Shown here: positions 58,605 to 64,000 of the stretch, in pieces
Numbering within the stretch: position 1 is the first letter of the stretch
Layout of the letters: each line of letters begins with the position of its first letter
Notes under the pieces: generated by a model
The model's database searches: none
Told to the model about the DNA's origin: nothing
Seen by the model: the letters and a program-made list of their open reading frames with translations, nothing else
Origin: Porphyra umbilicalis
Taxonomy: Eukaryota > Rhodophyta > Bangiophyceae > Bangiales > Bangiaceae
Direction: 5' to 3'
Assembly: GCA_002049455.2 (NCBI GenBank)
Contig: KV918778.1
Span: 186,001-250,000, forward strand
Length of the DNA stretch: 64,000 bases
Program-made: the position numbers and the translations under genes

Positions 58605-59560
58605 GTCGCCCTGGTCCGCGCGTCATCCGCCGTGCAACGGCGAGGGGGGGGGAGGGGAATGTGGTCGGGGGCGGCGACGACGGATACGTGTCAGCCGCCG
58701 CGGCGGTGACGCCGTCACCCGCCGAGCGAGGCGGCGGCGGCCAGCCGGACTCCACCCGCTGCTCCGCAAGGCGGCGGATCGAGTGGAGACGAACGGCTTT
58801 TGATGTGCCATGCCGCCCGCCCGATCTCTTCGCAGAAGCCGAGCTGCGCTCCACGTGCTACGCGCGGCGCACCGGCTCACGGCGGGTGAGGGCGGCGGCC
58901 ACCGCCGCTGGCGGCGTTGCCGCCGCGCATGCTGCCGACGCGGCGGTGGGCGGTGGACGATCTCACGAGTGACACGCGCCAGCACGTGGCGGCGACCGGC
59001 GGCCGCGGCGGTGGCTGCGGCGGTGGCGGCGGCGGCTGCAGGGGCGGCGGCGGTTGTGGCCCCCGTGGTGGCGGCGCGCGGGCGCCGTCTGTCTGCTAAC
59101 ACGTGCAGCTGCCGCCGTGGGATGCGCGACCGCCGCTGCCGTAGGGGTGACGCGGCCGCCCCCGCGGCGGCCGCGGCGTCGCTGCCCCCGCATCACGTCG
59201 CGTGGCGGCCGCCGGAGCAGTCGCACACGACCGCCGCGGCGGCGGCTGGACGGCGGGTGCCCCCACCACCGCCCAAAGTGGGGCACAGTCGGGCCACGTA
59301 CGGCTGGCGCGGCGCTGGCTTCGTCCTCGCCCCCCGACGCCGTGGGGCCCGGCCGGTGTTGGGGCACGCCCGACCCTGCCCCCCGCCGCCGGTAGTCCTC
59401 GTCCCCGCCAGTGGGCGCCCGCCGTTGACGATGCGCGTGTGCGTGCGCCGGGGCGGCCTGTCACGCCTAGTTTGTCGTGCTCTTCTGGGTCTGAGCTTTA
59501 CACGAGACGTTCGAAAATAGTTCCTTCAACGTGCTAAAATCTCAGTGGTCGAGAGAGCGT
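58605..59560. other. GC-rich unassigned DNA
   Basis: CGG/GCG-rich low complexity leaves frames open on both strands (for example + 58810-59520, Ala/Arg-rich). I see no domain or element end here. The continuation of gypsy-D gag, expected if gypsy C were one clean insertion, is not visible. Confidence 0.5.
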
Positions 59561-59563
59561 GAT

Positions 59564-59637
59564 CCCTCTCACAGAGGCCGTAGGGGCAGAATTGGCGACG
59601 CGTCGCCAATTATGCCTCTACGGCCTCTGTGAGAGGG
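59564..59637. repeat. 74-bp near-perfect palindrome
   Basis: Two 37-bp arms meet without a spacer at GGCGACG/CGTCGCC, with only two mismatched pairs. The arm ends read CCCTCTCACAGAGG. It would extrude as a hairpin. It could be two terminal inverted repeats joined head to head or a foldback remnant. Confidence 0.92.
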
Positions 59638-60093
59638 GTCGCCGGAACAGGGGACGCGACCCGAACCGGGCTTTCCGGCCAATTTGAGAGGGGTCTGCAA
59701 CAGAGGATGAGCCGGGGACGGCGTGTGACTTGATCGGCCGGATCAAGTCTTGCCCGCGCGCTGCTGCGCGTTGCGCCTGCAGGTGATTCAGAAGCCACTT
59801 AGTACTCCCTGTGCCGTTGCCGTCTTCCTGTGGTGGTTCCCAAAATGGCGGACGACGATGAAGACCGGACGTAAGTTCTGTTGTTGTGTAACGTTTGCTC
59901 GTGTTGACAGGACAAGCACACCAGCGGAGGGTCAACGGGGCTGACGGGGTTCGATAAATTCGTCCTGGGCTGGACGGGCGCAAGACGGACGCGTTGGGCA
60001 CGCAAAAGGAACTTACGCTCACCTTTTCCTCCTGTCCACGGCTTCAATCTATTGCATGTCAGCGTGCCACCTGTCCTTTTCGCTGCATCTTGA

Positions 60094-60810
60094 AACTACA
60101 CTGTAAACAGGGCAACCGCAGCAGACATTGGCGTTGCGTTCAAAGGCACAGTGTGGGCCTATCAATGCGTCGACTGCATGCGGCTCCTCCTCAAACCCAC
60201 AAAAGGGATGCAAGCGTGGCGGGAGTGGGCTCAGTCTCACCCTCCTGGCTCACCCCATGCCGTCGTTGCCAGCCTTCCAGTCATATTGTGCAAACAAGGG
60301 GCCCAGGTGCTTGGCATGGACGCGTCTGGCACTCCCCGCGGCCGTTGCGGCAAGTGCTATGCCAGGCGCACACGAGCGGCACGTCGCGCGGCGCCCGCTA
60401 CACCTGCTACTCCCACCCCCCACCCCCCCGCCTCTGCCGGCGTGCAGTCTCGCGTTTGGGGACCCTCTACGTGTCTGGCTTCGAGCACGATGGCTACGAG
60501 CGCGCCGGTGGTCAGCCTGATGCCTTCAGGGGGCTGCACAGATACTTCTGCATCCGTTGGGAACGCTCGGGTCACGGACGAGCCAGATGACGCGTGTCAT
60601 CTACAGGCACGGCAAGAGCGAGGCCGTGCTGCGGCGCCCATGCCTGGCGAGGCCGCAGACGCGCAGCTGTGTCCCCCGGCCGACCCCCACGAAGGTGCGC
60701 CAGCTGCGACGGGTGGCGCGGAGCCTTTACCCGCTCCGACGCAGGCGGCCGAGCCTGCGGCAATTCCAAGCTGCAAGGATTTCTTTGACTGTCTTGTGGA
60801 TGGGAATTAA
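60094..60810 (+). pseudogene. N-terminal zinc-binding part of the RAG1-like protein
   Basis: The frame after a TGA (60091) has a first in-frame ATG at 60178. The stretch at 60151-60180 (WAYQCVDCMRLL) precedes that ATG, so an upstream exon (TGTAAACAG at 60100-60108 could be a 3' splice site) or a near-cognate start is possible. Two CxxC pairs (CVDC, and CGKC about 60 residues on) suggest a zinc ribbon, followed by ~100 Ala/Pro-rich residues. It ends at TAA 60808, in frame with and 21 bp ahead of the core frame. The two are thus probably one protein broken by a stop. Confidence 0.5.
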
Positions 60811-60831
60811 GGCGGGGAGGAGGACAAGTCG

Positions 60832-62823
60832 GTGCTGGAGGCAATTGCCAACGCAATTTTGCTGCGTGGCAAGCGCCCCCAGATCCGGCTCAAGCACACG
60901 AATGGACGCGTGGTCGTGTACGCGCGGCAGATGTCGCCGCGGAAGGCTCTGGTCAAGAGCAGTCAAGCTAGCAAGCGTCGCGCTGCCGCGCGTAAGCTGC
61001 AGGAAGACACGCGCGGTGGGATGGTGGGGACGAGGCGCGACAGCCCGCGACCCGCCCGTGAGCCCGTGCGGCTCACTGTGGCCGAGCAGGTGGGCCTGGC
61101 AGCGGCCCTGCGACTGAGTCATATCGGGTTCAACCGGTGGCGCTTGGCTCTGGGGGGGCGCCGCAGTGGCTTAGCCAGTTTGTCTGTGCTCCGGGCTGCG
61201 CGGCGGCAGCTCTTTGATTTACCGGGGAAGCAGGTCATCGTCACGGGCTCGGGCGCCCATCTGGCATCCCTCACTGCGGCCATCCAGGAGAGGGTCTCGG
61301 CTCTGTGTGACGCGGACGCCTTCGTCGAGAGACCTCTGGCTGACACCCAACGGGAGCCCAGTGGCTCCGCCGGAGCCCCGGCGGTCGCGGTTCTTCCCGG
61401 GTCTCCCTCTCCGTCTGAACTCGACGTGCAGATCACCCTCGGCCTCGACAAAGGAGGCGACCCGGGGACGGTGAAAATTGTGGCAACAATTCTTAACCAA
61501 GCCCACCCCAACAGTCCATCCAACACGATACTGGTGGCCGTTTGCCCCTGCCAGGACGACAAGTACGAGGAGCTTGCGGCAATGCTCGAGACGCACCTCC
61601 CGCAGGTCGACGCTCTGCTTCGGGATGGGGTGTTGGTGCGCGGTGTGCACCGCCCAGTGCGGCTGCTGCTCGGCAGCGACTACGCAGCGCAGTACAACGT
61701 CCTGGGCCACAAGGGTGCGTCTGCGACGCAGCCCTGTCTGGGATGCAAGAGCACGCGGTTTCCGAGTGTCGCGCAGGCCGTACTCGACGATGCCTATGGC
61801 ACCCTCCAAGACGTTGACACCCGCAGGCACCTGCGAGAGGCAACGCACTTTGCCGATCGGATGGTTGCTGAAGGCGCTGCGGCGGTGGTGGGCGAGCCCG
61901 GCACAGCCGAGCACCACTGCTCGGTGGAGCGAAGCCCCCTACTTGCCATCAACCCGCGACAAATTGTACCAATTCCACTGCATTGCACGCTAGGAATTAA
62001 CCATCGGTATTTGCGGCTTGCTGTTGAGATGGTGATGGTCTTTCGGAGCTCAGCTGACGGCGCTGCTGCTGGGCGACAGGCGGGCGCCAGCTTTGCCCTC
62101 GAGCTTGTTGGCCTGCTGCACGAGAAGGTGCGCGTGCGGCCTACGCCGTACCATGGCGGGCTCTTCATTGGCCGCGACTGTCACACTATTGGGGACAGCA
62201 GTGCGCTCGTGTGTAACGCGCTCAAGGGAAAGGTCTCACAGAGCCACCTTGATGCCTACGAACAGGCGTGGTCGCTGTGGAATCGGGTGCGCAAAACCCT
62301 TAACCGTGCGTCGATCATCCCCCGCGCTGAGGCCGCGCTCTTTAGGGCGGACACCGCTGCAATGGTGCGCTTGCTGAAGGGAAGCTTTCCTTGGGTCTCC
62401 ATCTCACCGAAGTTGCACATCCTGATGTGCCATGCTCCGGCTTTTCTGGAGTCCTTTGGCAGTATCGGGCTGTATGGGGAGCAGGGCTTAGAGGCGTGGC
62501 ACGGCCGCTACGGCCAGAGTGCTGTCAAGTACCCCGGTGCCACGGAGCTGGAGCGTGCGGCGGCATTTATGAGGGCTATGGCACTCGCACGAGAGGCAGG
62601 GGCTGATGTGCTTGCGCGCTACGCGCCGCGACGAAAGCCTGCTGTACCGGGGGCCCGCATGGCACGTAAGGTCGGTGACAAGCGGCGGCGGGAGAACAAG
62701 CCGCAGCTCCCAATTTGTGGGGCAGAGAGCCGAAAAGCCGCGAAGAAGCGCAAGATGTGGGCGGCGGGGATTACCAAGGAGGCGGCTACAACAGTTGGCG
62801 CGCACATGCAGCGCGCCATCTGA
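60832..62823 (+). CDS. RAG1/Transib-like DDE transposase core
   Basis: There are 663 codons counted from 60832 (CTG); the first internal ATG is codon 34. Residues 201-220 (LGLDKGGD...KIVATI) hold the likely first catalytic Asp, D206. GSDYAAQYNVLG has D283, followed by C302 and C305 (PCLGCKSTR). LHCTLGINHRY lies at 383-393. H529 and H534 precede GSIG at 543-546 and E554. In vertebrate RAG1 the catalytic residues are D600, D708 and E962, with zinc ligands C727, C730, H937 and H942. The spacings D-19-C-3-C and H-5-H-20-E are identical here, as are LHC..G and GSIG. The enzyme would cut and join DNA at terminal repeats. A Lys/Arg-rich tail (from 625) may be a nuclear signal. It has a clean TGA end. 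Confidence 0.75.
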   Translation: MLEAIANAILLRGKRPQIRLKHTNGRVVVYARQMSPRKALVKSSQASKRRAAARKLQEDTRGGMVGTRRDSPRPAREPVRLTVAEQVGLAAALRLSHIGFNRWRLALGGRRSGLASLSVLRAARRQLFDLPGKQVIVTGSGAHLASLTAAIQERVSALCDADAFVERPLADTQREPSGSAGAPAVAVLPGSPSPSELDVQITLGLDKGGDPGTVKIVATILNQAHPNSPSNTILVAVCPCQDDKYEELAAMLETHLPQVDALLRDGVLVRGVHRPVRLLLGSDYAAQYNVLGHKGASATQPCLGCKSTRFPSVAQAVLDDAYGTLQDVDTRRHLREATHFADRMVAEGAAAVVGEPGTAEHHCSVERSPLLAINPRQIVPIPLHCTLGINHRYLRLAVEMVMVFRSSADGAAAGRQAGASFALELVGLLHEKVRVRPTPYHGGLFIGRDCHTIGDSSALVCNALKGKVSQSHLDAYEQAWSLWNRVRKTLNRASIIPRAEAALFRADTAAMVRLLKGSFPWVSISPKLHILMCHAPAFLESFGSIGLYGEQGLEAWHGRYGQSAVKYPGATELERAAAFMRAMALAREAGADVLARYAPRRKPAVPGARMARKVGDKRRRENKPQLPICGAESRKAAKKRKMWAAGITKEAATTVGAHMQRAI

Positions 62824-62886
62824 CGGTTAGGGCAAATAAAACACCACCGGTAGGCCACAAGTAGATTTGAATACGTCTGCTGCTCT

Positions 62887-63572
62887 GAGAGTCGCTCACA
62901 AAGAGAAGTGGCAGTGACATGAAAACGACGGACTATCTTTTTTCTGCGACATTTTCATGTTCATTTGTGCGCACGGCAGCGTTCCTCTCGCCGAGACCTA
63001 TCGAATGAGCTATAAAACACCGCCATAGCATAAGCACAGCCAGAGATAGTCGCATTTCCCACTCCGTGACCACTTGCACCCGGTTGCATTCTGAGTGTCC
63101 TGCGGCATGGGCCACGCAGGCCACAGTTGCAGAAGTTCCCCCTATATGTACATGGGTGCTGAGGGGACACTGAGTCATAATCTGCCGTCAGAAAATGGTT
63201 TTGAGCACGTCCGCGGCTCTGAGAGTCGCTCACAAAGAGAAGTGGCAGTGACATGAAAACGACGGACTATCTTTTTTCTGCGACATTTTCATGTTCATTT
63301 GTGCGCACGGCAGCGTTCCTCTCGCCGAGACCTATCGAATGAGCTATAGAACACCGCCATAGGATAACCACAGCCAGAGATAGTCGCATTTCCCACTCCG
63401 TGACCACTTGCACCCGGTTGCATTTTGAGTGTCGTGCGGCATGGGCCACGCGGGCCACAGTTGCAGAAGTTCCCCCTATATGTACATGGGTGCTGAGGGG
63501 ACACTGAGTCATAATCTGCCGTTAGAAAGTGGTTTTGAGCACGTCCGCGGCTCTGAGAGTCGCTCACACCGG
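62887..63572. repeat. 334-bp tandem duplication
   Basis: GAGAGTCGCTCACA recurs at 62887, 63221 and 63555, giving two complete 334-bp units that differ at a handful of sites and the first ~15 bp of a third. Each unit contains GAGCTATA(A/G)AACACC. The first begins 64 bp after the RAG1-like stop codon. No coding sense is evident. Confidence 0.93.
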
Positions 63573-64000
63573 ACAGTGGCGATGGTATTGGTACTGTCGT
63601 ACGATCCGTTGCGCAGTGTTGCGGGACGTCCGGAAGAGGCTCGGCCTCGCTTCCTTTTCGTCGGATCAACTCGAAACAATCGTTGCCCGACTGGTCCCAA
63701 TGCGTCAGTGAGAGCGGGTGGGCTTGGCCACGTTGTATTCCGCCATGGAAATCTGGCGCCTGATTCGAAGGACGGCCCGATCAGCTGACAAAATGTCAGG
63801 TGACCAATGAGCTATCGTATTTGGGACGAGGAGCCAACCAGGCGCATCAGTGCCCTTGAAAACCCAGAAGAGCACGAGCACTCAGTGCTAACTAGGCGTG
63901 CTGTGGTGGCCGTTCCGATAGTCGCCGACGCCGCAGCGTCGGCCCCCCCCCGTCCCGCGCGGCAGCGGCGGCGGGTACGCAGCGGCCGCCCCGCCAGCCG
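63573..64000. other. Unassigned end of window
   Basis: No gene or repeat is supportable. The last ~60 bp are C/G-rich low complexity. Confidence 0.5.

Follow-up and report, generated by a model that had tools for sequence, protein, structure and literature searches.

The transposon and its copies

The 64,000-nt stretch analysed here (the window) covers positions 186001-250000 of contig C18 in an 83.8-Mb assembly of 665 contigs, and it contains an open reading frame of 663 aa on the forward strand that forms the core of a transposase. The frame lies within a transposon copy whose borders we set by comparing copies. The features of this copy are as follows.

59458-59461 (no strand): left target-site duplication, CTGT
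59462-63900 (+): whole transposon copy, 4439 bp, CAC...GTG, probably Chapaev-type
59462-59490 (+): short (5′) end from copy comparison, with box 1 CACGCCTAGT at nt 1-10 and box 2 CTCTTCTGGGT at nt 19-29
60094-60807 (+): N-terminal stretch of the transposase, carrying a CxxC...CxxC module, from frame reading
60808-60810 (+): in-frame stop interrupting the window copy
60832-62823 (+): core frame of the transposase, 663 aa, with a DUF1280 match and a predicted fold like that of RAG1
61447-61449 (+): predicted catalytic D206, conserved, at the end of a predicted strand (198-206)
61678-61680 (+): predicted catalytic D283, conserved, after a predicted strand (276-281)
61735-61746 (+): C302-x2-C305, putative zinc ligands, ZnC2-like, from conservation and profile alignment
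62416-62433 (+): H529-x4-H534, putative zinc ligands, ZnH2-like, from conservation and profile alignment
62491-62493 (+): predicted catalytic E554, conserved, in a helix predicted in both models
62866-63568 (+): 334-bp tandem unit, 2.1 copies
63862-63900 (−): long (3′) end from copy comparison, with box 1 CACGCCTAGT at nt 1-10 and box 2 CTCTTCTGGGT at nt 29-39
63901-63904 (no strand): right target-site duplication, CTGT

The 663-aa frame covers just the 3′ portion of the gene, the in-frame stop having split off the N-terminal part. Related copies with frames of 909-941 aa are open through the stop position, and in five of the seven full-length copies of the family the frame is still 909-913 aa long. 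The CxxC...CxxC module recurs in several subfamilies; no Pfam family matched the N-terminal part of the frame. An upstream exon 5′ of 60094 is possible. In one copy (L014, C47:50000-59000), the N-terminal frame reads unlike that of its close relatives yet stays open, which suggests that small indels may lie behind the deviant reading.

The core protein matches at least 68 places in the genome, eight of them at 97% identity or more, and seven of these eight full-length, counting the window copy (L009, C18:243000-250000, with the element at C18:245462-249900). Copy-to-copy comparison gave sharp borders in three subfamilies, and inverted CAC...GTG ends were found across copies. With the ends set by these borders, an exact 4-bp duplication flanked 12 of the 15 copies in the three subfamilies; two of the 12 (L021 and L025) sit in runs of G. 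A 5-bp duplication was seen in one of the 15, L021, in a run of G beside its 4-bp one, and 3-bp matches were seen in two, both G-rich and both also 4-bp matches. Three full-length copies (L011, L014, and L022) had no matching 4-bp flanks, possibly owing to recombination between copies. A 4-bp duplication was also present in eight of nine divergent copies, for which duplication had been one of the grounds for choosing the ends. The preliminary description had proposed a search for further copies with shared ends and 5-bp duplications; the copies and the shared ends are there, but the duplications are of 4 bp. We conclude that this is a multi-copy element with precise CAC...GTG ends, 4-bp duplications, and short derivatives that carry the same ends.

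Short derivatives occur in several size classes (about 1.15, 1.28, 1.38, and 1.49 kb). The 334-bp array sits downstream of the transposase, ahead of the 3′ end, and its copy number varies between elements. In the family of the window copy (family A; L009-L015 and C9:255872-265654), most differences in element length are exact multiples of 334 bp (lengths of 4439, 4773, 5441, 5775, and 9783 bp, with 4438 and 4117 bp as exceptions), so the array grows and shrinks between near-identical copies.

Short and long ends

The same two boxes occur at both ends of the element at spacings that differ by ten bases, the short end being on the transposase-upstream side. Searching the genome for the pattern box 1-N{5,25}-box 2 returned 200 matches, compared to none for a backwards control, and 103 of the 200 had a gap of 8 (short ends). 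A search with N{18,48} returned 97 matches, all with a gap of 18 (long ends); one of these is an artefact of overlapping matches where box 1 is doubled at C89, leaving 103 short and 96 long ends. With exact boxes, no gap other than 8 and 18 was found genome-wide from 5 to 48. When 100 listed short ends of the 103 were paired with the 96 long ends, every one of the 59 convergent pairs lying no more than 15 kb apart consisted of one short and one long end, and 36 of them spanned less than 2 kb, too short for the gene. The 18-nt spacer took 20 distinct sequences among 49 of the listed ends.

Across subfamilies, the longest word common to both ends was shifted by +10 in all ten representatives, a shift that shuffles gave at a frequency of 0.027. 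In seven of the ten, which are divergent, the ends were chosen by scoring how well they matched, their duplication, and how long the shared word was; the shift did not enter the score, so that only the shift itself is unbiased. Comparison of left nt 17-29 with the right end gave an identity of 0.86 at a shift of 10 and at most 0.39 at the 15 other shifts tested. Box 2 varies by subfamily (CTCTTCTGGGT, CTCTTACGGGT, CTCTTTTGGAT, TGTCCGATCTGG, and GTCGCATA) and agrees between the two ends of each, with weaker agreement in L036 and L038 (a shared word of 5 bases) and in L029 (one box 2 mismatch). Three of the 12 divergent loci examined (L028, L030, and L031) lacked well-paired ends, and poorer candidate ends without a duplication gave a shift of 0 in L028 and L037.

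The element therefore has two boxes at two fixed spacings, with one of each spacing per element, which is an arrangement of the 12/23 type. This could be a frozen accident, in which an ancestral 10-bp insertion in the 3′ end was inherited by all subfamilies without having a role. All subfamilies are indeed related (40-77% identity), the 5′ and 3′ ends read as one sequence plus ten bases, and, because the subfamilies share ancestry, the 10/10 and 59/59 counts are not independent events. However, the ten extra bases vary in sequence (mean cross-family identity 0.41, vs. 0.83 for nt 1-14) and yet are constant in length, and box 2, which differs by subfamily, is in most of them alike at both ends. 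A spacer that keeps its length while its sequence drifts, together with boxes that change together, argues that one protein recognises both at two fixed phases. We infer that the short/long asymmetry is functional and consider a frozen accident possible but rather unlikely.

At nt 34-41 of the left end, beyond box 2, most of the ten 5′ ends carry a motif close to GCTTTACA / GCATTACA, which may be an additional binding site.

Residues, family, and predicted fold of the transposase

The preliminary description had read the frame as a RAG1/Transib-like core on the strength of D206, D283, C302, C305, H529, H534, and E554, and translation places all seven residues exactly where it put them. The intervals D283-C302 (19), C302-C305 (3), H529-H534 (5), and H534-E554 (20) likewise follow from the frame, while the RAG1 numbers to which they were likened are that description’s own. 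When the core was aligned with 16 other rows at 40-77% identity to it, D206, D283, C302, C305, H534, and E554 were invariant and H529 was present in 15 of the 16. In an alignment of 63 of 67 database proteins, many of them fragments, the counts with gaps set aside were D206 50/53, D283 51/54, C302 49/56, C305 48/54, H529 32/35, H534 33/37, and E554 28/31. Single-sequence search matched 46 proteins to the core at 40-99% identity, and profile searches with the core found 67 proteins, or 51 with a wider profile; none of these database relatives has a name from its source. Also conserved is a basic segment, SPRKxxVKxSQxNKRxAAAR, at core residues 35-54. The core has a D-D-E set in which C(2)C and H(3-4)H separate the second D from the E, the arrangement that defines CMCT in the cited passages of PMC12730594.

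Pfam assigned the core to DUF1280 (PF06918) with an E-value of 2.9e-6 and 27.5 bits against a cut-off of 25, in a match confined to the final third of the model (156-217 of 220); there are 25 DUF1280 matches in the genome. The sole other family listed was Fe-hydrogenase, at an unconvincing E of 0.25. At E up to 10, neither the RAG1 profile PF12940 (HMMER filters on) nor Transposase_21 was among the Pfam matches of the core. With a 25-homologue profile, RAG1 was the best PDB match at a weak E of 0.098, at which D/CxxC and H..H..GSIG stand in register with RAG1; no Chapaev is named among the PDB matches to compete with it. Two structure models of the core both matched RAG1, BbRAGL, and HzTransib far above all else, and the top 35 structural matches (VIA) were all to these proteins with either model; the structural match aligns model residue 127 with RAG1 506. 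Mean pLDDT was 58.7 and 59.4, and the D283-C305 and E554 regions were largely below 50. Because of this low confidence, the active-site geometry of D206, D283, and E554 is a prediction only, and it is as modelled that the core has the RAG1/Transib fold.

In the portions of Majorek 2014 (PMC3985635) used here, DUF1280 corresponds to Chapaev transposases, in one clade with RAG1, and in those of Kapitonov & Koonin 2015 (PMC4411706), Chapaev and Chapaev3 are distant clades of the Transib superfamily. The algal element shares with Chapaev, in the CMC/Transib group, its DUF1280 match, a D-D-E core with CxxC and HxxxxH, and CAC...GTG ends. Chapaev transposons make 4-bp target duplications, as does this element, and the N-terminal Cys-rich module may be a further likeness, to the Chapa zinc finger of that group. 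We conclude that 60832-62823 very probably encodes the transposase of a cut-and-paste DNA transposon of Chapaev type, an enzyme that would pair short with long ends. This filing is drawn from the DUF1280 profile, the residue motif, the ends, and the target-site duplications. The enzyme class is already known, and the resemblance to RAG1 is real but common to the whole group. What stands of the earlier reading is the RAG1-like predicted fold and the conserved residues; its filing as Transib/RAG1L gives way before DUF1280 and the 4-bp duplications.

That filing, as a true Transib or RAGL transposon on a protist branch of the RAG lineage, would suit the strong structural matches, which are to RAG1, BbRAGL, and HzTransib only, the place of RAG1 as top, though weak, PDB profile match, and ends that start with CAC and are bipartite and asymmetric; a few Transibs also have 12/23-like spacing in the excerpts of PMC8355894 considered. 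Nonetheless, the algal duplications are of 4 bp, whereas those of Transib are typically of 5 bp (PMC4411706 and PMC8355894, in the same excerpts), and Pfam gives DUF1280 and, at E up to 10, no RAG1-family match. The ends read CACGCC or CACGCG and have only CAC in common with the CACAGTG-like RAG heptamer, and the PDB matches against which RAG1 came first name no Chapaev as competitor. We regard a Transib or RAGL assignment as improbable. A CACTA/EnSpm element is disfavoured more strongly, as very improbable: the CAC...GTG ends would fit, as would the C2C/H(3-4)H core, common to the CMC group in the cited passages of PMC12730594, but Transposase_21 is missing from the matches up to an E of 10 and the duplications are 4 bp, vs. 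3 bp for EnSpm in those passages. A domesticated single host gene, which the long conserved frame might suggest, is refuted by the at least 68 matches, the precise ends, the duplications, and the short derivatives.

Proposed end pairing and the 12/23 rule

By analogy with RAG, a dimer of the DDE enzyme would cleave at the terminal CAC. Much as RAG brings together a 12RSS and a 23RSS, the enzyme would pair a short end, whose box starts at nt 19, with a long end, whose box starts one helical turn further in, at nt 29. The basic segment at core residues 35-54 would perhaps hold the inner box, and the element would then be joined to target DNA with a 4-bp stagger. This segment is upstream of the catalytic core, and counting back from the alignment of residue 127 with RAG1 506 puts it approximately at the RAG1 nonamer-binding domain, given the limits that we take that domain to have, in a region that both models resolve poorly. 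The domain order of RAG1 was taken from part of PMC7204232.

The algal ends resemble a 12/23 rule outside the RAG/Transib lineage. They share with the V(D)J RSS and RAG1/RAG2 a CAC at the cleavage end, two boxes, a predicted RAG1-like core, and two fixed spacings that differ by about one helical turn, with variable spacer sequence. In contrast to the V(D)J RSS, the inner box starts at nt 19/29 rather than at the 20/31 computed from 12/23-bp spacers, the box sequences are different, the duplication is 4 bp, and the ends belong to one mobile element. The window copy has 13 further frames of at least 100 aa, and a scan of 10 of them gave no RAG2-like domain (kelch or PHD families). ProtoRAG of amphioxus (BbRAGL) differs in its 27/31-bp spacing, which is not one helical turn, and in encoding RAG1L and RAG2L.

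The sections of the review PMC8355894 drawn on here name a few Transibs as the sole further case in which transposition is known to show 12/23 asymmetry. Taken together with sections of PMC8289069 and PMC7204232, it gives 12/23-like ends for a few Transibs only and 27/31 for ProtoRAG, and invertebrate RAGL is expected in PMC7204232 to be relatively insensitive to end asymmetry. In the sections of the RAG/Transib/RAGL literature covered, Repbase Chapaev descriptions aside, we saw no Chapaev-type element described as following a one-turn short/long rule. The strict short/long bipartite ends are presented here as a feature of the algal element. With confidence evenly balanced, we propose that a one-turn short/long rule operates in an algal Chapaev-branch transposon without RAG2, and that it would either be ancestral to the RAG/Transib/Chapaev group, and hence pre-animal, or have evolved more than once on a RAG1-like scaffold. 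Short/long ends bear on the open question of how the 12/23 rule arose, and those described here suggest that the logic of pairing did not have to originate together with RAG2 or in vertebrates. Compact and multi-copy, with several nearly identical copies, an enzyme resembling RAG1, no RAG2-like domain in the frames scanned, and ends strictly paired as 19/29, the algal element could serve as a simple test system for the rule.

DUF1280/Chapaev is described as present in animals in the portions of PMC3985635 used here, whereas the present host is an alga with a red plastid. On contig C665, a cbbX-like frame comes after a form ID-like rbcL (gene types named from sequence), and this pair indicates a red-type plastid contig in the assembly. 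The rbcL may be haptophyte-like; GC content is 34% around the rbcL gene, vs. 65% in the window.
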